A stretch of 64,000 nucleotides of DNA, taken from positions 124,001 through 188,000 of the forward strand of contig BMTG01000007.1 of assembly GCA_014649555.1 (NCBI GenBank). Reading direction: 5' to 3'. The translations under genes were made by a program, and so were the position numbers. This DNA comes from Streptomyces globisporus (GTDB lineage Bacteria > Actinomycetota > Actinomycetes > Streptomycetales > Streptomycetaceae). Positions within the stretch are counted from its first letter, which is position 1. Every line of letters starts with the position of its first letter. Positions 1 through 11,915 of the stretch are shown piece by piece. The notes under the pieces are model-generated. The model did not search any database. It was not told the origin of the DNA and worked only from the letters and a program-made list of their open reading frames with translations.

Positions 1-697
1 CCCGGCGCCAGAACGCGTAGTAGTCGTCGAGGTACTGGGTCAGCTCCGCCCGGTCCGGCAGGAAGGTGGACGACATGACCATCATCAACTGGGCTGCTGT
101 ACCCAGCAGTACGGTGCGCAGGTGGAGGTTCTTGGTGGCGAGGGCGTCGATCACCAGGTCACTGGAGTGCCGGAAGTGCCACTCGGCCAGCTCGATCCCG
201 GCGGCCCCGCCGTACTTCCCGAACTCCGGTTCGTACGGCTCCCGGTGGCGGGAGTTGTTGGGGCGCAGGTTCATCCGGCCCTGCTCGTCCGTGTAGTGGC
301 CGCGCTCGCTGCCGGGGAACTCGATCTCGAAGAGGGTGTTGTAGAAGTCGTTGAGGAACCCGGAGTCGACCTCGTACAGCGCGGGCCGCTCGGCGAGGAA
401 CGCGTCCACGGCCCGCTCGGTGCGGCGGGCGACTTCCGGCTCGGCGGCGGTCGTCGACGGCTTCAGGCGCAGCCGTACGTGGGGTCCCTCCAGCCAGTAG
501 TTGATGAAGAAGTACCCGGCGAGCAGGCCGTCCGCCTCCAGATCCGCGACCAGGGGGCGGACGCAGTTCAGGAGGAAGGGGCGGGGGTTGGCGGCGTAGA
601 AGACGTGGGTGGCCTGCCAGGCGCCGGTCGTCCCGGTCCCCGTCGTTCCGGTCCCCGTCGTTCCGGTCCCGGTCGTTCCGGTGGTGGGCGGTGTCAT
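1..697 (-). CDS. SpaB_C/thiopeptide-type bacteriocin biosynthesis protein (partial, 3' end outside window)
   Basis: The start is visible: ATG at 697 overlaps the stop of the dehydratase gene (ATGA). The 3' end lies beyond position 1. About 232 residues can be read. After a low-complexity Thr/Gly N-terminus (about residues 5-25) the protein has the features of the SpaB_C family, including FINYWLEGPHVRLRL near residues 65-79 and a downstream segment rich in Tyr, His and acidic residues. In split LanB systems this family removes glutamate from glutamylated Ser/Thr to give dehydroalanine/dehydrobutyrine. Close relatives act as [4+2] pyridine synthases or as peptide aminoacyl-tRNA ligases. Position directly after the LanB N-terminal protein favours the elimination role (TbtC-like), but the fold alone does not prove it. 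Confidence 0.85.
   Translation of the reverse strand, partial: MTPPTTGTTGTGTTGTGTTGTGTTGAWQATHVFYAANPRPFLLNCVRPLVADLEADGLLAGYFFINYWLEGPHVRLRLKPSTTAAEPEVARRTERAVDAFLAERPALYEVDSGFLNDFYNTLFEIEFPGSERGHYTDEQGRMNLRPNNSRHREPYEPEFGKYGGAAGIELAEWHFRHSSDLVIDALATKNLHLRTVLLGTAAQLMMVMSSTFLPDRAELTQYLDDYYAFWRR
627..682. repeat. 15-bp tandem repeat, about 3.7 copies, inside the SpaB_C gene
   Basis: Units of 15 bp (GTCGTTCCGGTCCCC and near-identical variants) begin at 627, 642, 657 and 672. On the coding strand they encode Thr-Gly-Thr/Thr-Gly pentapeptides at the extreme N-terminus of the SpaB_C protein. The unit length keeps the frame, so copy number could change without a frameshift. Confidence 0.85.
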
Positions 698-3450
698 ACG
701 GTCCTCCTGCGGACGGGTGCGGCCGTCTCCACGGCCAGTTCGGCGACATGGCGGCCGGGGCCCGAGACGGTGGGCAGCGCGTCCTCGTCCGGCAGCATCT
801 CCCGGAACACCACGCGGGCTTCCGGGGACTTGATCAGCGCCTCGAAGGCGGACAGGGACAGCGGGCTGTCGAAGTCGAGGTACTGCGGTTTGGCCCCGGT
901 GGCGCCCCGGGCCCCGGTGTCCGACACGGTCGCGAAGACCCGGTCGGGCAGCCCGTGGGTCCGCCGGAAAGCGTGCCAGTCCAGGAACCAGCCGTCCTCC
1001 GGTGTGCCCGGCCGGTGCAGCGGCAGGACGGTCGCCGGGGCGCTCCAGCTGCGCCGGCTCAGCACGAGCGAGCCGTGTCGCACCCGGGGCCGCCCGGTGA
1101 CCCCGCCGCGCGGCTCGGCCTCGGGAACGCCCGCCCACACGTTGAGCGGGGCCATCGAGGTCGGGGAGAGGAGGAGCAGGGTGCGGGGCAGTTCGGGCAG
1201 GGCGAGGGGGACGAGGTAGCCGAGGTAGACGGGGATCACCTCGCGGTCCAGGCGGGCCGAGCGCAGGACGAGCCGGTCGGCCCCCGGGTCGTGGACGAGG
1301 TGGAGATCGTCCAGATCGATCCTGAACTCCGGCTCCAGCGTGCCGCGTTCGCCGGGGCAGACAATCTCGTACGGGGTCAGCCGGCCGTGCAGGTTGAGGT
1401 TGCTGGTGACCGGACCGCCGGTGACCTCGGCGAGAACGGCCCCTTCGGGCACGAGCGTTCCCGTGTCCGCGAGGAGCTGTTCGCCGAGACCGTCGAAGAG
1501 CTGGGTGAACCGGCTGAACGGGAACGACACCCCGCCGTAGGACCGGTTGAGGACGACGAGCGGGTCGCCCAGGCGGTCGGCGATCTGGACGTGGTGACTC
1601 ATCGGGGCGAAGTCGGCCGGTGGGAGGTCCAGTTCACCGGCGACCGCGTCCAGGAACGCGTCGTCGAGCCACACCTCGACCGCCCCCGGCTCAGCCGCCT
1701 CCGCCAGTGCGGCCATCCGGGCGGTGAAGGTGCGGCGCGCGGCGTCGAGGGCGCGCAGCCGGGGCAGGCCGAGCCAGTTGACCTCCGGGACGTAGGTGCC
1801 GTCGGCGTCGTACGGGGTGCGGGAGGCGGTGAACGTCATGTACTGGTCGAAGAAGTCCTCGTGGAAGTCGTGGACCAGCTTCAGCAGGTCGTCGCAGCGG
1901 CCGCCGCGTCCGTAACGCGCCAGGAAGAAGCCCTGGAAGGTGATCCGCTGCGGGAGGGTGAGGTCGAAGGCGGGCAGCACCCGCTCCACGGCCGCCAGCG
2001 GCCCGGCGGCCAGCTCGCGCCAGGCGTCGGGGTCCAGGGTGACGCCTGGGCCGTCCGGCGTGACCACCGGGCCTCCGGGGGCGCCCCGGTCGTCCGGCGC
2101 ACGCTCCACGCCCGCCGCCGCGTCCTCGTACAACAGCGTCTGCGGGACCTTCGCGCGCGGAACCTCCAGCTCCTCCTCCTGCACCGCCCGCAGCCCGGCC
2201 CGCACGGCTGCCAGCAGGGCGCGCCGCTCGTCCGGGGCCGCGTCGGCGAAGCGGGCGGCGTGGGCGGCGGGCTCCTCCAGCCGGTCCGCGAGCCGGCCGG
2301 CCCAGGGGCGGTCCAGGCCACGCAGCGCGTCCTGGAAGGCCCGGAGCGGGTCGGTGTCGTGGACCTCGGTCCGCAGGCACGGCACCTGGACCATGCCGAC
2401 GTCCAGGAGCGCCCCGAGGTACTGCTCGCACTCCTCGCGCGCCGCTCCCCGGTCCCGCTCCAGCCAGGCCGCCAGCTCGCCGTAACGGATCGTGCCGCGT
2501 TCCTCGAACAGGCCGAGCAGCCGTTCCAGGGTGCCGCTGCGGCGCAGGAAGAACAGCCGGTCCTTCACGGCGTCGAAGGTGACGGCGGTGTCGTCGTCCC
2601 CCGCCGTGACCCAGCGCCGGACGTACCGGACCCGGTCGTCGTCGCGCCCCCAGCCGGAGGCCAGGGCGAGCGGCAGATCGGCCCGGCGCACCGGATCGGC
2701 GATCACCGCGTCGGCGAGCCGGCCGAGCGCCACGACGTTGAGCCGGATCTGCGTCCGCCATTCCTCCCCGACCCGCAGACGCAGGCCCTCCGAGCCGCCG
2801 AAGTGGCCGGGGGCGACGCCGGTGAAGGTGGAGAAGGGGCTGGTCTTGCACGCGGTCCGGTACACGTAGGAGAGCAGCGAGCGTTCGATCTTGCGCTGTT
2901 TGCGATCCGGCCGCGCCCCGGGGCGGGACGCCTTCTCCCGGTAGGCGTCGAGCTGGGCGTCCAGGGTCGGCGAGGCGAGCAACAGGCCCTTGCGCAGCCG
3001 CTCGTGACCCGCGATCCGGGCCAGCTCGGTGCGGGTGCGACCGGTCTCGTCCGCCAGCAGGGCGGTCCCCGCGTCCCGCTGGTCGGCGAGGGCGCGCCGG
3101 CCGGTCAGCCAGTCGGCGAGGGCCCGGGCGGCGGCCGGATCGAGGGCGCGGACCCGGGTGAGGGCGTCCTCGGCGGCGACGGGGTCCGGCAGCCGGTTGT
3201 TGAAGACGTCGCGGCGCAGCTTCAGCAGGGCGCGGCGCAGCGGTTCGTCGTCGCTGCCGCCGATCAGCCCGTGCAGCTGGTCGGCGGCCTTCCCGGCCAG
3301 CAGGGCCAGCTGTTCGGTGGTGTCGAGGACGTCGTCGGCCCAGCGACGGCTGCCGGGGCAGCGCAGGGCACGGACCTCGTCGACCGGGAGCCCTGCGACG
3401 CGCAGCATGAACGCGGGTGCGGGGGCTGGGGAGTTCGCGGTGTCGGTCAT
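694..3450 (-). CDS. Lantibiotic dehydratase N-terminal-type protein (split LanB, glutamylation enzyme)
   Basis: This 918-residue protein matches the lantibiotic dehydratase N-terminal family across its length. Recognisable features include the RRDVFNNRLP segment near residue 75, FSTFTGVAPGHFG near 210 and the late YGGVSFPFSRF segment. In thiopeptide and goadsporin-like pathways the family uses glutamyl-tRNA to glutamylate Ser/Thr of the precursor peptide. A separate SpaB_C protein then eliminates glutamate. The protein lacks its own SpaB_C domain, which the next gene supplies with a 4-nt ATGA overlap. The ATG at 3450 follows a GGGGA ribosome site by 8 nt and lies 14 nt after the dehydrogenase stop, so the genes form one operon. 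It is TbtB-like by position and length. Confidence 0.92.
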   Translation of the reverse strand: MTDTANSPAPAPAFMLRVAGLPVDEVRALRCPGSRRWADDVLDTTEQLALLAGKAADQLHGLIGGSDDEPLRRALLKLRRDVFNNRLPDPVAAEDALTRVRALDPAAARALADWLTGRRALADQRDAGTALLADETGRTRTELARIAGHERLRKGLLLASPTLDAQLDAYREKASRPGARPDRKQRKIERSLLSYVYRTACKTSPFSTFTGVAPGHFGGSEGLRLRVGEEWRTQIRLNVVALGRLADAVIADPVRRADLPLALASGWGRDDDRVRYVRRWVTAGDDDTAVTFDAVKDRLFFLRRSGTLERLLGLFEERGTIRYGELAAWLERDRGAAREECEQYLGALLDVGMVQVPCLRTEVHDTDPLRAFQDALRGLDRPWAGRLADRLEEPAAHAARFADAAPDERRALLAAVRAGLRAVQEEELEVPRAKVPQTLLYEDAAAGVERAPDDRGAPGGPVVTPDGPGVTLDPDAWRELAAGPLAAVERVLPAFDLTLPQRITFQGFFLARYGRGGRCDDLLKLVHDFHEDFFDQYMTFTASRTPYDADGTYVPEVNWLGLPRLRALDAARRTFTARMAALAEAAEPGAVEVWLDDAFLDAVAGELDLPPADFAPMSHHVQIADRLGDPLVVLNRSYGGVSFPFSRFTQLFDGLGEQLLADTGTLVPEGAVLAEVTGGPVTSNLNLHGRLTPYEIVCPGERGTLEPEFRIDLDDLHLVHDPGADRLVLRSARLDREVIPVYLGYLVPLALPELPRTLLLLSPTSMAPLNVWAGVPEAEPRGGVTGRPRVRHGSLVLSRRSWSAPATVLPLHRPGTPEDGWFLDWHAFRRTHGLPDRVFATVSDTGARGATGAKPQYLDFDSPLSLSAFEALIKSPEARVVFREMLPDEDALPTVSGPGRHVAELAVETAAPVRRRTV

Positions 3451-3464
3451 CGTCGTGTCCCCGC

Positions 3465-5051
3465 TCAGGCGATTTCGTAGCGGAAGTCGGCGGGGGCGGG
3501 GCGCTCGTTGCCGATCATCATGATCAGCAGGGGCGCCTCGCCCGTCCCTTCGAGTCCCAGCTCCTCGATGTAGGAGATGTTGTCGAAGCCGAGGGCGACC
3601 CCGCAGCCGAGCTCCACGGCCGCGGCGGCGGTGTAGACGGACTGGGCGACGGCTCCGACGGTGGCGTTGACCAGCCGGTATCCCCGGTCGCCGACGGCGT
3701 CGAGGACGGCGGTGGTGCGGACGGTCGGCACGAGGACGGCCCCGGCCTGCTCCAGGTTGTAGTTGGCGAGGAAGTAGTTCCGCTGGAGGAACTCCCCCGG
3801 CCGCCCCTCCTTCACCCGCCGCAGGCTCCGCCGCCCGGGGTCGTAGACGTACGAACCGGGTTCGACGCCCTCGACGTGGCTCACGAACGCGTACAGCTGC
3901 GCCAGCCGGACGTCACCGGTGTCGCCGCCGAGCCGCGACCCGGCCGAGGCGGCGGCCAGACATGCGGACAACTGGTCGGCGGTGAGCGGCTTCTGGGCGT
4001 CGAAGCGGCCGAAGCTGCTGCGCCGGGCGCGCAGTGCGGTGCGCACGTCGGCGTCCAGGGGCCGGGCGGGCGGCAGTGCGACCTCCGTGAGCCCCGGGTC
4101 GACGGGGTGGGCGGCGGCGGACCCGAGGGCCTCCGGGGCGGGGCGGGTGGTGGCGTCGGCGGAGGTGGCCGCCTGCATGCGCAGCAGCGCGTCGAAGGTG
4201 AGGACGGTACGGGAGCGCTCGACATCCGCCCGCCGGACGGAGACATCCGCAGTGGCGGCTGGACGACCCGAACCTGCTTGCTCACCGGCCCACTTGAGCG
4301 GAACGACGGCGAAGATCCCCTCCCGCGCCGGGTCCACGCCGAGCAGGGCGGCCAAGCGCTCCTCGTCGAACCAGAGGGCCGGTTCGACGGCCAGACCCCG
4401 GGCGGCCGCCCACATCCGCCAGGTCTGAACGCAGGCTCCGAGGTCCATGGAGACGGCGTGGAAGGAGAAGCTGTTGTACTTGAAGGAGTTCTGCCAGTAC
4501 TTGATGCCGAGCACCAGGTACTGATCGGTCCCGGGCCCCGGCGCGCCGGCGCCCAGCGCCTCGCGCACCTGCCCGGAGACATCGCCCGTGAGCAGCCGTT
4601 GCATGGCGTGGTGCCGGGTGGAGTAGTAGTGCACCCCCGGCGGTACGGGGGCGTTCGGCCCGGACACCCAGTGGATGCTGACCGGGTAGAGCCCGCCGCC
4701 GGAGGCGGATCCGCGCGACCAGTTGGCCAGCGGGTAGAAGGGCAGGGCGTTCAGGTCCGTGTTGGCCTGGACGCCGAGTCGACGCCCGGTCAGACCGTAC
4801 GAGTCGCGGAGCATGCCGGAGAGCGACGCAAGGTCGAACTCCCCCTCCGCCGGGACACCTTCGGGAAGCAGGCCCCGGCCGAGCGACGCCCCGGCCGGAT
4901 AGGAGGCGTCGGGCAGCGGGAAGCCGTCCGCGCCCGGGTGGTACTTCGCCTTGCGCGGGCCGTCCTGCCAGTTCGGTACGTAGTCGGCGGGGTCCATCGG
5001 GACCCGGCCGCGGTGCATGATCGCGGCGGCGTATTCATGGGCGTATCCCAT
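3465..5051 (-). CDS. SagB-type azoline dehydrogenase (nitroreductase family)
   Basis: The 528-residue protein has two nitroreductase-like halves. The first (about 60-260) contains SGMLRDSYGLTGRR and SRGSASGGGLYPVSI. The second (about 340-528) begins with TALRARRSSFGRFD and ends with an FMN-pocket-like segment. SagB/TOMM dehydrogenases are FMN enzymes that oxidise azolines made by YcaO complexes to aromatic thiazoles and oxazoles. ATG at 5051 is chosen because AGGAG lies 6 nt upstream. A GTG 24 codons earlier (5123) lacks a ribosome site. A 105-bp gap with short repeats separates it from the YcaO gene. In the pathway it acts after cyclodehydration, equivalent to TbtE. Confidence 0.9.
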   Translation of the reverse strand: MGYAHEYAAAIMHRGRVPMDPADYVPNWQDGPRKAKYHPGADGFPLPDASYPAGASLGRGLLPEGVPAEGEFDLASLSGMLRDSYGLTGRRLGVQANTDLNALPFYPLANWSRGSASGGGLYPVSIHWVSGPNAPVPPGVHYYSTRHHAMQRLLTGDVSGQVREALGAGAPGPGTDQYLVLGIKYWQNSFKYNSFSFHAVSMDLGACVQTWRMWAAARGLAVEPALWFDEERLAALLGVDPAREGIFAVVPLKWAGEQAGSGRPAATADVSVRRADVERSRTVLTFDALLRMQAATSADATTRPAPEALGSAAAHPVDPGLTEVALPPARPLDADVRTALRARRSSFGRFDAQKPLTADQLSACLAAASAGSRLGGDTGDVRLAQLYAFVSHVEGVEPGSYVYDPGRRSLRRVKEGRPGEFLQRNYFLANYNLEQAGAVLVPTVRTTAVLDAVGDRGYRLVNATVGAVAQSVYTAAAAVELGCGVALGFDNISYIEELGLEGTGEAPLLIMMIGNERPAPADFRYEIA

Positions 5052-5156
5052 GGCGGGCTCCTTGGTCACGGCAGGAGGGGGAAGGGAAGAAACGGGCATG
5101 GGATCGGTCAGGGAATCGGTCACGGGGATCCGTCATGGGACCCGCCATGGGACCCG

Positions 5157-7178
5157 TCACGGGAACGGGTGCGGGGCCGGGTTGAGGTCGGCGTCGGTGA
5201 GGTCCGCCGTCCGCAGGCCCGCCTCGCGCAGGGCGGTACGGAGCCGGGGCATTCCCAGGGCGCGCTGGCGTGTCCAGCCGAAGTCGATCGGCAGCAGCCC
5301 GGGCACGATCACGCTCACCGTGGTCAGCCCCAGATCCCGCTGTTCCGGCATGGTCTGGTCGACGACCACCACGTCGAACCCGGCGGCGGCCACGGCGTCC
5401 ACGCACCGGCGGAGGTCCTCGCGCAGATCGTCGGAGACGGGAAGGAGTGGCCGGGCGCCGGGCCCGGCCCCGTACAACTCCCTGAAGGAGCGCGCCGGTC
5501 GGCGTACGAGACCGGGCGCGCCGAGCAGGAAGTCCGCATGGTCGCCCATCTCCGGGATGCCGTACGCCAGCGGGTGGTCGTGCAGCGCCTCGACCCTGGC
5601 GAAGTCGGTGGCCATGGCGCGCAGCCGCTCCTCGTCCCGCTGGGTGCGGCCCTGGAGGTTGACGGCGTCGGTGGCGATCTCGCAGAGCGCCCCGGCCAGG
5701 GCCGCTTCCGGGTCGAGCCCGGCCCCCGCGCCGAAGCACATCCGGCCGGGCCCGCCGTCGGGGCGGACGGCGACCCCGGTGACGACGGGGATCGGGAAGG
5801 TGATCCGGGTGTCGAAGAACCGCGCCTCGTAGCCGTACATCTCCAGCCGGTCCACCATGTGCCGGGTGGCGGGGCGGCGGCTGGTGCGCGGGTCGATCTC
5901 GGGCAGCGTGGCCCGCCCGTACCAGGAGAGCAGGAACGCGTCCCGCTCCACGACCTCCATCAGCCCGAAGTAGGCGGCCTCCTCCAACGCGCCGCCGGAG
6001 GCACAGCCGTTGGAGCTCTCCTGCACGAACCGGTTCTCCAGGCCCGGCGCGTGGTAGTACGTGAGCACTTCGGGGACCAGGACGGTGTGTCCGTCGCGCA
6101 GCGACCAGCCGCGCACCCAGGGGATCTGCCGGTCCGGGGTGAAGGGCTGCACCCGGGGGTTGGCCCGGTGGAAGGCGTCGGAGTAGAGGCCGCAGACGCG
6201 CGGGTCCACGACGGCCCGGCCCTCGGCGCGCAGGGCGTCCAGGGAGGCGTGCACCTGGGCGTGTCTGGCCCGGGGCCGCATGCCCGCGTACCGCTCCAGG
6301 CCCTCCAGCACGCCGATGCGCACGCTGTCGGCGAAGGTGTCGGCGTGCCCGCCCCAGAACGTCTCGCGCAGATACGGACCCGAGCGCAGGGAGAAGCAGC
6401 CGATGGTGGCTGAGGTGGACGTGGAGGAGACGTCGTGGACGACGGAGGGGCCGAGCGACCCGCAGACGGGGTTGGCGTACGGCTCGACGGGCAGTTCGTA
6501 GTCCCGGAGGTCCCGGACCCGGAAGCCGCCGGGCCGCAGCTTGGGCGCGGGCTTCAGGGTGAGGGCGGCGGCCTCGTCGCTGTCGGGTTCGGGCTGCCCG
6601 CAGCCGGGGCACTCCGGGTCGGGGACGAGCGGGTAGTGGCGGACGGCCAGGGTCTGGAGGTCGACGAGGTGGACGGCGGGGAAGTCTCCGGTGTCCGGTC
6701 CGCCGCCGGCCAGCCGGGCGGCGATCACCCCGGCGACGGCCTCGGCCGCGAACGGGGTGACGTACGGGGACGGGCCCGCCGCCCGGGTCCCGGAACCGAG
6801 CTCCAGCGCCTCGCGCAGGGCGACGGACCGCACGGCCTGCCACCGGCGCTCCAGGCAGCGGGCGCAGGGGCGTCGGGCGGTGCCGGGCGGCGTCGGCAGG
6901 GGGCCGACGACGGCGTGCCGCCCGTAGTGGCGCACGGGCACGGCGTCGGCCCGGGGCACCTCCCCGTCCGACGCGAACGCGTCGCGTACGCCCAGGGGTC
7001 GGACGTCCGGCGACGTGGTGACCGCGTGCCGGGCCAGCCCCTGCCGCAGCAGCTCCCGGAGCAGCCGGGTGGACTCCCCCAGCACGGGAGCGTCCGGTGC
7101 GGCGGGTACGTTGGGCGCATCGGGCCCGTCCGGCGCGTCGGGCACGTTGGGCGCGCCCCGCAGCGTCTCAACGGCCAT
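5157..7178 (-). CDS. YcaO-domain cyclodehydratase with N-terminal Cys-rich extension
   Basis: The 673-residue protein carries a YcaO domain from about residue 245 to the end. The ATP-binding signature is visible near residues 386-413, with SSNGCASGG followed by EEAAYFGLMEVVERD. The C-terminus is proline-rich (PAPHPFP), as in azoline-forming YcaOs that need a C-terminal PxPxP-like tail. The family phosphorylates the peptide amide to cyclise Cys/Ser/Thr into azolines. The first 200 residues carry CARC and CPGC pairs like the zinc-binding part of TOMM E1-like partner proteins. ATG at 7178 overlaps the end of the ocin-ThiF gene by 11 nt. A longer frame upstream would lie inside that gene and is low-complexity, so it was rejected. 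Confidence 0.9.
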   Translation of the reverse strand: MAVETLRGAPNVPDAPDGPDAPNVPAAPDAPVLGESTRLLRELLRQGLARHAVTTSPDVRPLGVRDAFASDGEVPRADAVPVRHYGRHAVVGPLPTPPGTARRPCARCLERRWQAVRSVALREALELGSGTRAAGPSPYVTPFAAEAVAGVIAARLAGGGPDTGDFPAVHLVDLQTLAVRHYPLVPDPECPGCGQPEPDSDEAAALTLKPAPKLRPGGFRVRDLRDYELPVEPYANPVCGSLGPSVVHDVSSTSTSATIGCFSLRSGPYLRETFWGGHADTFADSVRIGVLEGLERYAGMRPRARHAQVHASLDALRAEGRAVVDPRVCGLYSDAFHRANPRVQPFTPDRQIPWVRGWSLRDGHTVLVPEVLTYYHAPGLENRFVQESSNGCASGGALEEAAYFGLMEVVERDAFLLSWYGRATLPEIDPRTSRRPATRHMVDRLEMYGYEARFFDTRITFPIPVVTGVAVRPDGGPGRMCFGAGAGLDPEAALAGALCEIATDAVNLQGRTQRDEERLRAMATDFARVEALHDHPLAYGIPEMGDHADFLLGAPGLVRRPARSFRELYGAGPGARPLLPVSDDLREDLRRCVDAVAAAGFDVVVVDQTMPEQRDLGLTTVSVIVPGLLPIDFGWTRQRALGMPRLRTALREAGLRTADLTDADLNPAPHPFP

Positions 7179-9459
7179 CGGTGCCGCCCTCGCCGTCCAC
7201 CGTGAGCAGCACCCGGGCCGTGGCGATGGAGCCGGAGCGCAGGTCCGCCGGGGTCGTCGGCACGTACAGGGCGTCACGCCCGGCGGCTCGCAGCGCCTCC
7301 AGCACCGCGTCGAACGCGGTTTCCGCCGCGTCCGCCACGGCGGACCCGCCGCTCACCGCGATCGCCCCGGGCGCCAGGTCGGACACCAGCGGGTCGCCGG
7401 GGTCGACCGCCGCCTCCGGGTCCTCGGCGGCGAGCTGCACCTGCCCGAGCAGGTCCCGCAGGGCGGCGGCGGCCGCCGTACGCCGGGACAGCCCGGCCCC
7501 GATCGCCCAACGCGCTCCGGCAGCAGGCCCGTTCGCCTCCCGGGCCAGCACCACGTGGGCCGTGCTGCGGTCCGCCTCGCCCAGGTCGAGGAGGTCCACG
7601 GCGATGTCCAGGTTGGCGGCGGACTTCAGCAGGAACACCAGCTCCGGGTCGCCGCCGACCGCCAGCGGGCTCACCGTGGTGGTGCCACGGACCGCGCGGA
7701 GCAGGGCGTCGTGGGCGAGCGCGGACAGCAGCCCCCGGCCCGCCGCCTCCGCCGCGCTGCCGCCCGCCCCGGCTCCGGCGGTGGTCGCCAGGTGCACCCG
7801 GTCGCGGTTGTACGGCCCGAACGGGCGCAGGGCGGCGGCCGGTACGCGTACCGGGTCCTTGCCGATCAGGGAGGTCGCCACCGTCCAGGCGGCGGGCGCG
7901 GCCCCGGTGCCGCCGCCGGTCGTCAGGGCGTCGGGCCCCAGCGTCCGCGGCTCCCGCGCAGCAGCGCCCGCCCGGTCACCGGCCTCGACGCCCTGGACGC
8001 CCTGCACGCCCGTCAGCGGAACCATGTGCTCCACATACGTCTCGGCCGCCGCGTACAGTGCCCGGGTCCGCGCCCCGGCCAGGTGGTGCACGTCGAACGC
8101 GGCGATCCGGCGGCGCGCCCCGCCTCCGAGCGCCACCTCGACCCGGCTGAGCTTCAACGGGGTCTGGGTCAGCTCCTCGTCGTCGTAGCGGCGAAAGGTC
8201 CCGGTGTACGGGCGGACCAGCGCGGTGCTGATCCGGTTCAGCTCCTCCACCAGCTCCTCCGCGTCCCGGGCGGTCTCCACGGTCGCGGTGACGGGCAGGG
8301 CGAGGGCCTCGGGCAGGGCGGCGGGTCCGTCGGCGTCCTCGGCGGGGAGCGCGGAGCAGCGGACGCACCGGGGGTGGGGCCGGACCGGTTCGGCCATCAC
8401 GTCCAGCGATTCCAGGTCCTGGACGAGGACCTGGCCGGCCGTCTCGGCGGGCAGCGCTCCGGTGGTCAGGCGGAAGACCTCGTAGCCGACGAGGTTGCCC
8501 ACCATCGCGGCGACCGGCCCGGACAGGGCGGCCCCGTCCGACCGTACGGCCCCGGCCGCCTCGCTCCACAGCTCGGCCGCCGTGCCGGGGTCGACGTTGC
8601 CGCCCAGGCGCAGCAGGGCGCAGGACCAGCAGCCGGTGGAGCCGGCGGTGGAGAGCGGGCCGACGACCAGACGGCGGCCGAACAGCCAGGCGGGGATGAG
8701 CGTCACGCCCTCGGGCACCCCGGCGGCCAGCAGCCGGTGCGTGCGCGCCCCGGCCCCGGCTCCGCTGACGACGACGATGTCGTATCCGTCCAGGTCGGCC
8801 CAGTCCGCGTCCGTACCGGCGGTGACCGTGTCGACGCGCGCCCCGTTGGCGGCGGCCTCGGCGATGACGTCGTCGGAAGCCGCCACCGCGCCGATGCCCG
8901 CGCATCCGTTGCGCACCAGGCTCAGCGCGCACCAGCGGGCCGTCTCGTCGTGACCGAGGACGGCGACACGGGTGGCGCGGTAGCGGGCGAAACGGGCGAG
9001 GGCGTCGTCGGTGTAGTGGTCGACGTAGGCGATCTGGGCGGCGAACCGATCGGCGGTCTCCGGGTCGACCGCGTCCCCGGCGGTGTCGGCCTCGGGGATG
9101 TCCCGGGCGAAGCCGCGCGCGTACAGCGTCTTGACCAGTTCGGCGGCCATCGCCCGCTGCGCGGGCCCGAACCCGGCGCAGAGTTCGGCCATGCGGTGCT
9201 GCCCGGTGAGGTGCGGGACGACGAGGGAGGCGAAGCGGTAGGCGGTGCGGCCGGTGAGGTGGAAGCCGCCGTCGGCGTTGTGGAACAGCACCCCGCCGGG
9301 GGTCTCGGTGAACAGCACGTCACGGCGGATACGCGGCCGGGTTCCGGCGAGCGCGTCGAACGCCGTGGTCGCGGTGGTCTCCGTCGTCGCGGCGGTCGCG
9401 GGCGTCGGTGCGGGCGTGGCGGGTACGGCGGGTGTGACGGGGGCAGCGCTCTCGGCCAT
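7168..9459 (-). CDS. TOMM precursor leader-peptide-binding protein (RRE plus ocin-ThiF-like)
   Basis: The 763-residue protein starts with an Ala/Thr-rich stretch. A winged-helix RiPP recognition element-like segment follows (about 40-125, with DVLFTETPGGVLFHNADGG). Then comes a degenerate E1/ThiF Rossmann region (VAVLGHDETARW) and two CxxC pairs (CWSC, CVRC) likely to bind structural zinc. The family captures the leader peptide and presents it to YcaO, as TbtF does in thiopeptide pathways. The start is ATG 9459, just 5 nt after the SARP stop. The same frame stays open upstream into the SARP gene, but that part is an Arg/Pro-rich shadow. The C-terminal 250 residues match nothing I can name. 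Confidence 0.88.
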   Translation of the reverse strand: MAESAAPVTPAVPATPAPTPATAATTETTATTAFDALAGTRPRIRRDVLFTETPGGVLFHNADGGFHLTGRTAYRFASLVVPHLTGQHRMAELCAGFGPAQRAMAAELVKTLYARGFARDIPEADTAGDAVDPETADRFAAQIAYVDHYTDDALARFARYRATRVAVLGHDETARWCALSLVRNGCAGIGAVAASDDVIAEAAANGARVDTVTAGTDADWADLDGYDIVVVSGAGAGARTHRLLAAGVPEGVTLIPAWLFGRRLVVGPLSTAGSTGCWSCALLRLGGNVDPGTAAELWSEAAGAVRSDGAALSGPVAAMVGNLVGYEVFRLTTGALPAETAGQVLVQDLESLDVMAEPVRPHPRCVRCSALPAEDADGPAALPEALALPVTATVETARDAEELVEELNRISTALVRPYTGTFRRYDDEELTQTPLKLSRVEVALGGGARRRIAAFDVHHLAGARTRALYAAAETYVEHMVPLTGVQGVQGVEAGDRAGAAAREPRTLGPDALTTGGGTGAAPAAWTVATSLIGKDPVRVPAAALRPFGPYNRDRVHLATTAGAGAGGSAAEAAGRGLLSALAHDALLRAVRGTTTVSPLAVGGDPELVFLLKSAANLDIAVDLLDLGEADRSTAHVVLAREANGPAAGARWAIGAGLSRRTAAAAALRDLLGQVQLAAEDPEAAVDPGDPLVSDLAPGAIAVSGGSAVADAAETAFDAVLEALRAAGRDALYVPTTPADLRSGSIATARVLLTVDGEGGTDGR

Positions 9460-9464
9460 GGGGA

Positions 9465-11474
9465 TCACACCTTCTCTGTGCGGCGGTCGCGGATCCGGGC
9501 GGTTCTTCGTACGTGGGCGCGGAGCAGATCGTGGATGCGGTACGGGCCCGGCGGGCCGTCCTCCAGCAGTCCGGCATCGGCGAGTTGTTCCCGTACGGCT
9601 TCGGGAACGGGTCCCTCGTCCTGGGGGCCCTGGTCGTCGAGCAGCGTCGGGGGGCCCTGCGCGAGGTGGGTGAACGCCTCGGACAGCCGGGGGTCGAGCC
9701 GGCCGAGCGCCCGGTCGAAGAGGCCGGTGACCGAGTGGTCCGGGGAGTCGGTCAGGGTGAGCCGGGCGAGCGGGTCGTCGCCCAGCCAGTCGGCGGCGTC
9801 CGAGAGCCGTAGGCCGGGCCGGGTGAGCAGCCGGGCCGTGAGGATGCGCAGGGCGGCGGGGAAGTGGCCGCACACGGCGGCGAGCCGGTGGGCGGCGCGG
9901 GGTTCGGCCTCCACCCGCTCGGCGCCCAGGGCGGTCAGCAGCAGGGCGTACGACTCGGCCTCGGTGAAGGTCGTCAGGCGCTGCACCCAGCCGCCGTGGG
10001 TCGCGATGAGTCCGCCGAGGCCCATCCGGCTGGTGACCACGACGGCGGGGCCCGGTCCGGCCCCGGCTTCCCCTTTCGGTGCGAGCAGGGGGCGCACCTG
10101 GTCGGCGTCGACCACATCGTCGAGGATCAGCAGCGCGCGCCCGTCGCCCGATGCCCCGAGCGCGGCGGCCACGTCGGCGGCCACCTCATCGGCCGGGCGG
10201 GGTTCGCCGTCCGCGCGGGTCATCCGGACGAGCAACTGCCCGGCGGGAAAGGCGTCCCGGACCAGCCGGGCGGCATGCTGGGCGAGGGCCGATTTGCCGA
10301 TGCCGGGGGCCCCGGACACCAGGACGGTGAGGGGCCGGTGGTCCTCGGGGCCGGGGGGCGGGGGTGCGGTGAGGCGGGCGGTCAGGGCGGCGGTCTCGGC
10401 GGCGCGCCCGGTGAAGTGCGGGACGGCGGGGACAGGCTCGATGCGGGACGCGGCGACCGGAGCGAAGGTCGTCCCGGCGGCGAGGGCGGGTGGGGGTGCG
10501 GCGACCGGGGTGGTGCCCTGGACCGGGGGGCCGCCCTCAGCCGGGGCCGGCGTGCCGCTCACAGCCACGACGGGCGAAGCGCCCTGGGGCGTGACGGACG
10601 CTGTGGCCTGAGCCGTGGCGGACGCCGCGTCCGGAGCCGTCGAGGGCGCCGCGTCCGGGGCCAGGGCCGGCCGGGCGGCCGGGAGGGGGACGGTCTCGCC
10701 CCGGATGACGCGGGGGGCCGCCGGGCCTGCCGGACCGAGGTCCTCGCCGCGCAGGACGGCCAGTTCGAGCCGGCGCAGGGAGGGCGAGGGGTCCACGCCC
10801 AGCTCCTCCAGCAGGAATCCCTTGACCCTGCGGTACTCGGCGAGGGCCTGCGACTGGCGTCCGCAGCGGTAGAGGGCCTCGATGAGCTGCTCGTGGAACC
10901 GTTCGTGCCCCGGGTGGACGCGCGTAGCGGTCCACAGGTCGACCAGCGCCTCGCCGCAGCGCCCGAGCCCCAGCAGCAGGTCGCAGACCCGCTCGACCGC
11001 ACGCAGCCGTTCCTCCGCGAGCCGGGGCACCTCGTCGCGGTGCAGGACGACGGACCGTACGTTGGCGAGCAGCGAACCCTGCCAGAGCGAGAGGGCGTCC
11101 CTGAGCGCGCAGAGCTCCGCCTCGGGATCCCGGTCCAGGCCGGCGGCCCGGCGCACCCGGTCGCGGAAACCGAGGAGATCCAGGGTGGGCGGTGCGGCGG
11201 TGATCCGGTAACCGCCGGGCACCGCCTCGATGGAGGTGGTGACGCCGTGCTTGGAGAACAGCCGGCGGAGCCGCAGCACACAGGTCTGGAGGGCCGCCCT
11301 GGCGGTGGCGGGCTGCTCCTCGCCCCATACCGCGCGCTGCAAGTACTCGGCGGAGACCGGGGAGTTGGCGTGCAGGAGCAGCGCGGCGAGCAGGTTAGCG
11401 GGCTTGGAGGGCTGAAGGACGACGGTATCGGGGCCGTCCGCGAGGGCGAGCGGCCCCAGAAGCTGGAACCGCAT
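9465..11474 (-). CDS. SARP-family transcriptional activator with NB-ARC-type ATPase domain
   Basis: The 669-residue protein has an N-terminal OmpR-like winged helix (1-95, MRFQLLGPL through CVLRLRRLF). A bacterial transcriptional activation domain follows (about 100-250, ending FLLEELGVDPSPSLRRLE), then an Ala/Pro/Thr linker. An ATPase module begins near 340 with P-loop GAPGIGKS and a Walker B-like LLILDD. SARPs activate antibiotic operons by binding direct repeats near the -35. A SARP also controls nosiheptide, a thiopeptide, so pathway-specific control of this cluster is expected. The start is MRFQLL at 11474; the upstream open frame overlaps the small secreted gene. The stop lies 5 nt before the leader-binding gene, so regulator and enzymes are probably co-transcribed. 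Confidence 0.9.
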   Translation of the reverse strand: MRFQLLGPLALADGPDTVVLQPSKPANLLAALLLHANSPVSAEYLQRAVWGEEQPATARAALQTCVLRLRRLFSKHGVTTSIEAVPGGYRITAAPPTLDLLGFRDRVRRAAGLDRDPEAELCALRDALSLWQGSLLANVRSVVLHRDEVPRLAEERLRAVERVCDLLLGLGRCGEALVDLWTATRVHPGHERFHEQLIEALYRCGRQSQALAEYRRVKGFLLEELGVDPSPSLRRLELAVLRGEDLGPAGPAAPRVIRGETVPLPAARPALAPDAAPSTAPDAASATAQATASVTPQGASPVVAVSGTPAPAEGGPPVQGTTPVAAPPPALAAGTTFAPVAASRIEPVPAVPHFTGRAAETAALTARLTAPPPPGPEDHRPLTVLVSGAPGIGKSALAQHAARLVRDAFPAGQLLVRMTRADGEPRPADEVAADVAAALGASGDGRALLILDDVVDADQVRPLLAPKGEAGAGPGPAVVVTSRMGLGGLIATHGGWVQRLTTFTEAESYALLLTALGAERVEAEPRAAHRLAAVCGHFPAALRILTARLLTRPGLRLSDAADWLGDDPLARLTLTDSPDHSVTGLFDRALGRLDPRLSEAFTHLAQGPPTLLDDQGPQDEGPVPEAVREQLADAGLLEDGPPGPYRIHDLLRAHVRRTARIRDRRTEKV

Positions 11475-11527
11475 CCCGGGAGGCGTCCCCGAAATGCCTC
11501 CCGCCGCGGCTGCTGGGCTCGACACGT

Positions 11528-11776
11528 CTAGTCCCAGCCGTTGACCAGCTTGCACATCTGGACGGGCGGCGATTCCGGGGGCAGTTGGCCGATGATCCCC
11601 GCCAGCTCCGTACAGATGACACGGGCGATCTCGTCGGCGGCGGGCGGGGGGCCGGCCGGAGTGGTGGCCGATGCGGGGCCGGTGGAGAAGGTGAGGGCGG
11701 CGAGGGCGATACCGGTGACGAGGGCGGCGGCTCTGGCCGGGCGGCGCTGCTTCTGCGCAAGCGGAGACCTTGACAC
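11528..11776 (-). CDS. Small secreted protein of unknown function, first gene of the RiPP operon
   Basis: This GTG-started protein of 82 residues has a clear Sec signal peptide: basic QKQRRPARA, a hydrophobic core (ALVTGIALAALTF), and probable cleavage after ASA near residue 37. The mature part is about 45 residues with two cysteines, ICTELAG and QMCKLVNGWD. AAGGGG precedes the start by 5 nt. Only 53 bp separate it from the SARP start, so they probably share a transcript. It has too few Ser/Thr/Cys at its C-terminus and the wrong leader type to be the thiopeptide-like precursor. I do not recognise a family. A role as exported signal, immunity factor or unrelated secreted peptide cannot be told apart here. 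Confidence 0.7.
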   Translation of the reverse strand: MSRSPLAQKQRRPARAAALVTGIALAALTFSTGPASATTPAGPPPAADEIARVICTELAGIIGQLPPESPPVQMCKLVNGWD

Positions 11777-11867: not shown

Positions 11868-11915
11868 TGTCAGCTTGCTGCACAGGAGGCCGCCGCCTTG
11901 TGCAGCAAGCTGACA
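11868..11915. promoter_or_regulatory. 17-bp perfect inverted repeat upstream of the RiPP operon
   Basis: Arms of 17 bp at 11868-11884 and 11899-11915 (TGTCAGCTTGCTGCACA and its exact complement) flank a 14-bp spacer. The repeat lies 91 bp upstream of the small secreted gene and after the terminator of the ABC operon, where the RiPP operon promoter should be. It may be a regulator operator or an RNA hairpin in the leader. Confidence 0.75.

Follow-up and report, generated by a model that had tools for sequence, protein, structure and literature searches.

What is made by a run of biosynthetic genes that leaves the analysed DNA at its left edge, and where is the peptide on which the enzymes act? 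The stretch under study (hereafter the window, 64,000 nucleotides) comprises bases 124001-188000 of the 411-kb contig C7 in a Streptomyces genome of 8.25 Mb and 58 contigs. A first-pass annotation of the window had listed an RRE/ocin-ThiF protein, a YcaO protein, a SagB dehydrogenase, a LanB half and the start of a SpaB_C protein. It read the set as that of RiPPs containing azoles and dehydroamino acids, and it noted that the choice between a macrocyclic and a linear, goadsporin-like product hinges on genes left of position 1. Both points hold: the five genes are present in that order on the minus strand, with scores over model cut-offs, the enzyme set is the one named, and of the two products the linear one is now favoured. 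We consider it highly probable that these genes are part of a complete RiPP cluster of Streptomyces whose product is a linear peptide with azoles and dehydroamino acids, made by the pathway proposed below.

We added the 40 kb to the left of the window, with genes called by script. Subtracting 124000 from a C7 coordinate gives the window position. From left to right the features are:

C7:116377-116649, minus strand: 90-aa protein, no family match, present in 19 of 62 relatives' loci
C7:116646-118157, minus strand: M20 amidohydrolase (TIGR01891, 241.6 bits, cut-off 153.75), in 57 of 62 relatives' loci
C7:118232-118272, plus strand: direct repeats (SARP-like) upstream of the precursor
C7:118354-118530, plus strand: precursor, 58 aa (TIGR03892, 49.4 bits, cut-off 25; NF033400, 40.9 bits, cut-off 30)
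C7:118531-118607: hairpin in the 77-base gap 3' of the precursor, folding at -51 kcal/mol
C7:118608-120635, minus strand: YcaO2, 675 aa (TIGR03604, 336.6 bits, cut-off 219.25)
C7:120632-121387, minus strand: ABC permease (PF01061)
C7:121476-122438, minus strand: ABC ATPase (PF00005)
C7:122482-123618, minus strand: M50 protease (PF02163, 36.7 bits, cut-off 27.2; NF041824, 85.4 bits, below its cut-off of 300)
Window 1..697, minus strand: SpaB_C protein, probably of the glutamate-elimination type (TbtC/GodG-like); full 360-aa gene C7:123615-124697 (TIGR03891, NF045556 and a tree)
Window 694..3450, minus strand: LanB-type glutamylation half, 918 aa (TbtB/GodF-like; PF04738, 149.4 bits; PDB matches)
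Window 3465..5051, minus strand: SagB-type azoline dehydrogenase, 528 aa (TIGR03605, 126.8 bits, cut-off 78.4)
Window 5157..7178, minus strand: YcaO1 cyclodehydratase, 673 aa (TIGR03604, 309.4 bits, cut-off 219.25)
Window 7168..9459, minus strand: F protein with N-terminal RRE, ThiF-like middle and degenerate YcaO-like C-terminus (TIGR03882, 60.1 bits, cut-off 36.9)
Window 9465..11474, minus strand: SARP/AfsR-type regulator with BTAD and NB-ARC domains (PF03704, 122.3 bits; PF00486, 33.1 bits; PF00931, 25.3 bits; all over cut-off)

Read beyond the window's left edge, the cluster is complete. It seemed incomplete because the edge cuts it, and the earlier description of an incomplete cluster without a precursor has to be given up: beside the precursor, the left flank holds the remainder of the SpaB_C gene, the M20 hydrolase, the M50 protease, another catalytic YcaO and the genes of an ABC exporter. 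On the minus strand the order runs SARP regulator, F protein, YcaO1, SagB, LanB half, SpaB_C, M50 protease, ABC ATPase, ABC permease, YcaO2. Past YcaO2 come the M20 hydrolase and the 90-aa protein, both on the minus strand, and the plus-strand precursor lies between M20 and YcaO2. These are not chance frames, since they pass curated model cut-offs and have homologues in the same order elsewhere. No TTA codon (bldA control) occurs in genes 26-43. A fixed chromosomal place was considered and rejected: mfd adjoins the cluster as it does here in 7 of 20 relatives, and in the other 13 none lies within the 12 kb fetched.

The precursor itself was sought by a scan for frames with at least 12 Ser, Thr or Cys residues, including 2 Cys, among the last 22. 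Between C7:115001 and C7:136500 the scan gave the true precursor, an out-of-frame stretch over the SpaB_C gene and no others, which agrees with the earlier statement that the visible part held no S/T/C-rich precursor. The test set at that time, a leftward extension in search of a short Ser/Cys/Thr-rich gene, thus ended in a peptide of 58 residues, encoded 5.5 kb left of the window on the strand opposite to the enzymes. AGGGAG precedes its start, and it passes both thiazolylpeptide-type precursor models, TIGR03892 and NF033400. An acidic leader, which would end after ...VVLAG, is followed by the core STSCSSTSTCSSTTSTTSCSA: 20 consecutive S/T/C residues and then Ala, with no other ordinary residue.

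How widely is this arrangement shared? A search with the SpaB_C protein at E <= 1e-10 gives matches in 90 of 392 genomes of the genus. The cluster type occurs in 64 of the 392, about one in six, a count that comprises L040-L101 (61 genomes, as G302 has two), the own genome, L103 and L106. The carriers span many Streptomyces species; Streptomyces griseus NCTC13033 (L133), for one, has the cluster together with its precursor. Of 77 fetched loci, 56 have the full set of 11 cluster genes in the same order, the two YcaOs being separate. Of the other 21, seven are cut by contig ends (L042, L060, L071, L073, L081, L085, L094), one has no detected M20 (L106), and 13 are distant or different comparison clusters (L102, L104, L105, L107-L116). 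Among 394 genomes sampled from the class, 15 yield a precursor match at E <= 1e-6; these belong to 3 of 137 genera, one of them being the own genus. Eighty of the 174 loci found were kept, among them two from Micromonospora and one from Sphaerimonospora. Loci in other genera of the class (L230-L238) have related leaders and S/T/C-rich cores of their own, for example TTSTSSTSTCSSCTSCTSCASF, often several per stretch.

Exactly 20 consecutive S/T/C residues followed by Ala are present in 129 of 135 precursor records (drawn from overlapping collections), in nine core versions; the other six have different cores, some with Ala or Asp inside the run. The collection yielded none for 26 of 157 loci (cut contigs, loci with moved precursors, distant clusters, and some unexplained, for example L147 and L203). 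In nine relatives (L088-L095 and L106) the precursor had appeared to be absent, a view we rejected when the gene was found at the other end of the cluster; these moved precursors (L118-L126) have Cys at other positions, CTSTSSTSTSSSTCSTTSCSA. Tandem precursor genes with differing cores occur inside one cluster in L074, L187, L131 and L101.

Across 57 of 62 genus loci, mean pairwise identity is 0.919 for the core and 0.935 for the final 18 residues of the leader, compared with 0.57-0.72 for whole cluster proteins. These statistics omit L071, L073, L081 and L085 (contig ends) and L100 (different leader and core), and L101-L106 were not entered. Only 11 of 1944 21-residue windows of the cluster proteins match the core in conservation, and in all 1596 pairs from the 57 loci core substitutions stay within S, T and C. 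At several core positions serine is kept although its codon is TCN in some loci and AGC in others. The pN/pS ratio is 0.21 for the last 18 leader codons; the 0.72 obtained for the core is uninformative, because the method scores such serine changes as two amino-acid changes. To call this conservation 'extraordinary' would overstate it: in five cyclothiazomycin-type clusters, taken as a control, the 18-residue cores differ at no more than one position while enzyme identity is 72-94%. Conservation of the core suggests that the product matters, with no indication of what for.

Two catalytic YcaOs and an F protein stand in the cluster. YcaO1 matches LynD (4v1t) with E 3.5e-37, and the ATP motif of YcaO1 and YcaO2 (Ser, Asn, three Glu, Arg, Asp) is identical in 56 of 56 relatives, as are the HExxH and PxxDG motifs of the M50 protease; the former residues presumably bind ATP and the latter zinc. 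The C-terminal PHPFP end of the YcaOs is kept in 51-53 of the 56. The F protein matches PbtF (8t19) with E 8.8e-5 and scores 79.8 bits on TIGR03693, below the cut-off of 561.9; its YcaO-like part seems to be a pseudo-enzyme, because the ATP motif is lost. The dehydration genes are of the LanB type (PF04738/PF14028). Two PDB entries are structural relatives of the LanB half. One, at E 1.9e-44, is 6ec7 ('lantibiotic dehydratase domain protein'), which we take to be TbtB; the other, at E 1.7e-13, is 9jhq ('goadsporin biosynthetic protein'). The first-pass annotation had named two outcomes that would speak against its reading, a left side lacking a precursor and further cluster genes, or enzymes with inactivating mutations. 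The precursor and the further genes exist, and the YcaO ATP and M50 zinc motifs are intact here and in the 56 relatives.

Why two YcaO proteins? In G151 (L102), a relative at greater distance, the entire genome encodes a single YcaO and the core is rich in Cys, as against the few Cys and many Ser and Thr in the cores of two-YcaO clusters. This one comparison suggests that YcaO2 may serve Ser and Thr.

SARP operators consist of heptamers in direct orientation, repeated every 11 or 22 bp or so. Upstream of the precursor, TGTCAGC and TGACAGC lie 11 bp apart, with a third repeat 23 bp on; across 104 kb no other such pair at 11-bp spacing turns up when up to one mismatch is allowed. Upstream regions were surveyed for 60 of 73 loci, those with a start and enough upstream sequence found. 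Exact TGWCAGC occurs at least once in 43 of the 60, at least twice in 27 and not at all in 17, the background frequency being 0.019 per 220 bases. Spacings of 11 (16 cases) and 23 (11 cases) occur most often. A separate inverted repeat, TGTCAGCTTGCT, with arms about 40 bp apart, lies at window 11868-11915 (C7:135868 and 135909), about 400 bp upstream of the SARP gene.

Two other loci on contig C3 of the same genome (G000) deserve mention. One (L219, 8622-19573) combines a YcaO, an S15 peptidase, a 44-aa candidate precursor, and FecCD and periplasmic-binding metal uptake genes, with genes for ribosomal proteins S14 and L31 nearby; this mix hints at zinc starvation as the setting, with a metal-binding peptide as a possible product. 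The other (L220, 3997-9456) is a class I lanthipeptide-like cluster in which a 60-aa Ser/Thr/Cys-rich candidate precursor is accompanied by a LanB N-terminal part, a LanC-like protein and a PCMT-type methyltransferase joined to a SpaB_C domain.

Which known system does the cluster resemble? In goadsporin, according to the portion of PMC5303826 available, GodD, GodE and the GodF/GodG pair give azoles and Dha in a linear peptide. The god cluster of Streptomyces sp. TP-A0584 is alike in its precursor, YcaO cyclodehydratase and FMN dehydrogenase (PMC5303826 and PMC4603692, both in part). It is also alike in combining a split LanB with one elimination protein and no pyridine synthase; there the product described is linear, whereas here linearity is predicted from gene content. 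The god cluster relies on GodD alone, in contrast to two full YcaOs and an F protein here, and on a transporter with a peptidase domain where an M50 protease stands here; moreover, the present core is an unbroken S/T/C run. No GodH-like N-acetyltransferase is found among called genes 27-40 (C7:115318-135474).

Coryneazolisins, as described in the available part of Cox et al. 2015 (PMC4603692), are alike by architecture and description only: their clusters too have two D (YcaO) proteins and split dehydratases, lack a [4+2] enzyme and encode an S/T/C-rich core. They differ, in the same excerpt, by a C-fused form of one D beside a discrete one, by a core that Ile interrupts and by their Corynebacterium hosts. 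Dehydrazoles (carnazolamide) likewise join azoles and dehydroamino acids on one chain, but their dehydration is of the DUF4135 LanM type (PMC10676384, in part), unlike the LanB pair here, where the DUF4135/LanMbC test is negative. Thiopeptide clusters share most parts: a TIGR03892-type precursor, an F protein, YcaO, SagB, LanB and an elimination-type SpaB_C. They occasionally carry an additional fused cyclodehydratase, as the accessible text of PMC4603692 has it. They differ in the [4+2] pyridine synthase (TbtD/PbtD), none of which scores over cut-off here. The cluster would be of the goadsporin/LAP kind, and it stands out by its spread, its two YcaOs and its spacer-free core; its chemistry and function we infer from sequence. 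A 2020 survey of YcaO clusters omitted regions with lanthipeptide dehydratase genes (PMC7136475, seen in part), so the family described here would have been excluded. We found no description of the cluster, and no paper on the core fragment, in the open-licence literature searched; the family may be described elsewhere.

Could the product nevertheless be a macrocyclic thiopeptide, the single SpaB_C protein performing [4+2] pyridine formation (or elimination and cyclisation both), or a synthase being encoded elsewhere? We regard this as improbable. The precursor models are named for thiopeptides and not for linear peptides, the only meaningful PDB match of the SpaB_C protein among the five listed is the pyridine synthase TbtD (E 6.3e-7), and its best-scoring NCBIfam model is the pyridine-synthase model NF045556. 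The PDB comparison cannot separate the two activities, because no stand-alone elimination protein is among the five matches listed, and the score on NF045556, 92.7 bits, is far below the cut-off of 325. The controls were three same-genus clusters with two SpaB_C proteins after LanB and the core SNCTSTGTPASCCSCCCC, which we take to be the cyclothiazomycin core. In these the first SpaB_C proteins, in the elimination position, score the same as ours on NF045556 (96.8, 97.1 and 97.2 bits), but the second ones, the pyridine synthases, score about four times higher (411.6, 366.1 and 391.1). With TIGR03891 (cut-off 48.45) the window protein obtains 83.4 bits, the first control proteins 75-88, and the second 21.7 or no match. 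In a tree of 32 SpaB_C proteins, whose long branches leave the deeper joins unsure, three groups stand apart (96/96, 99/99, 100/99), one of the window family, one of elimination-position proteins and one of pyridine synthases. The leftward search for a second SpaB_C protein or pyridine synthase, proposed in the first-pass annotation, brought up none in the cluster. None in the genome exceeds the NF045556 cut-off (58 contigs, completeness given as 100, an assembly gap being conceivable); its one other SpaB_C protein is on another contig. A single SpaB_C match is present in 66 of 68 loci (the own locus and L040-L106), the gene being split in the other two, and the fetched stretches of the 67 relatives' loci (L040-L106) contain no second one. 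These comparisons indicate that the window SpaB_C is probably of the glutamate-elimination type; with one such protein in the cluster and no pyridine synthase over cut-off in the genome, the product is most likely linear.

A linear product might already be known. Streptomyces sp. CWH03 makes spongiicolazolicins, linear azole peptides of 28 and 29 residues (PMC8838263, in part), and this strain, Streptomyces pacificus CWH03, carries the present cluster type (L157, L055). The peptides resemble the predicted product in being linear and in joining azoles with Dha/Dhb. That the two families are the same is nonetheless very unlikely in our judgement. Spongiicolazolicins are reportedly built of triplets of Dha, azole and an unmodified residue (PMC11583998, in the part available), in contrast to 20 consecutive S/T/C residues here, with the last Ala as the only ordinary residue. 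Another CWH03 cluster, on contig 1 (L218), fits the reported triplets better. It encodes a YcaO, a leader-binding protein, an M50 protease, a SpaB_C and a SagB-like protein whose 77.7 bits fall slightly short of the cut-off of 78.4; an unassigned protein of 929 aa occupies the place of LanB. Its four tandem precursors have ordinary residues among S/T/C, and the two tested match the thiocillin-family model. Its SpaB_C is of the elimination type too (TIGR03891, 80.4; NF045556, 28), and L218 is probably the spongiicolazolicin cluster. A decayed or silent relic can be set aside with still greater assurance. Two relatives do have the SpaB_C gene split across two frames (L103 and L106, the genome of L106 being only 55% complete), but here the genes have their full length, the checked motifs of the YcaO and M50 proteins do not vary, and the core changes within S/T/C throughout the 1596 pairs.

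For the linear peptide we propose the following pathway. The SARP regulator would switch on the divergent precursor gene via the direct repeats. The RRE of the F protein would hold the acidic leader while the two YcaO cyclodehydratases convert Cys and some Ser/Thr of the 20-residue core to azolines, which SagB would oxidise to azoles. The LanB half would glutamylate the remaining Ser/Thr, and the single SpaB_C protein would eliminate glutamate, leaving Dha and Dhb. The M50 protease would then take off the leader and the Drr-like ABC transporter export the product; with no pyridine synthase, the chain would stay open. Predicted in this scheme are the residues that turn into azoles or Dha/Dhb, the point where the leader is cut, the task of either YcaO, control by the SARP, and the product's linearity and function.

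What, then, might the cluster mean for the genus? About one in six sampled Streptomyces genomes holds this RiPP family, and no product is tied to it in the papers found. One may speculate, at rather long odds, that it makes a single near-invariant molecule of some 20 adjoining azoles and dehydroamino acids, its YcaOs dividing Cys from Ser/Thr, and that this molecule serves Streptomyces as a shared signal or morphogen and not as a species-specific weapon. Since the core has no spacer residues, nothing but the order of S, T and C, or the enzymes by themselves, can decide whether a residue becomes azole or Dha/Dhb. The nine core versions in those 129 of 135 records make the rule for this choice directly testable.
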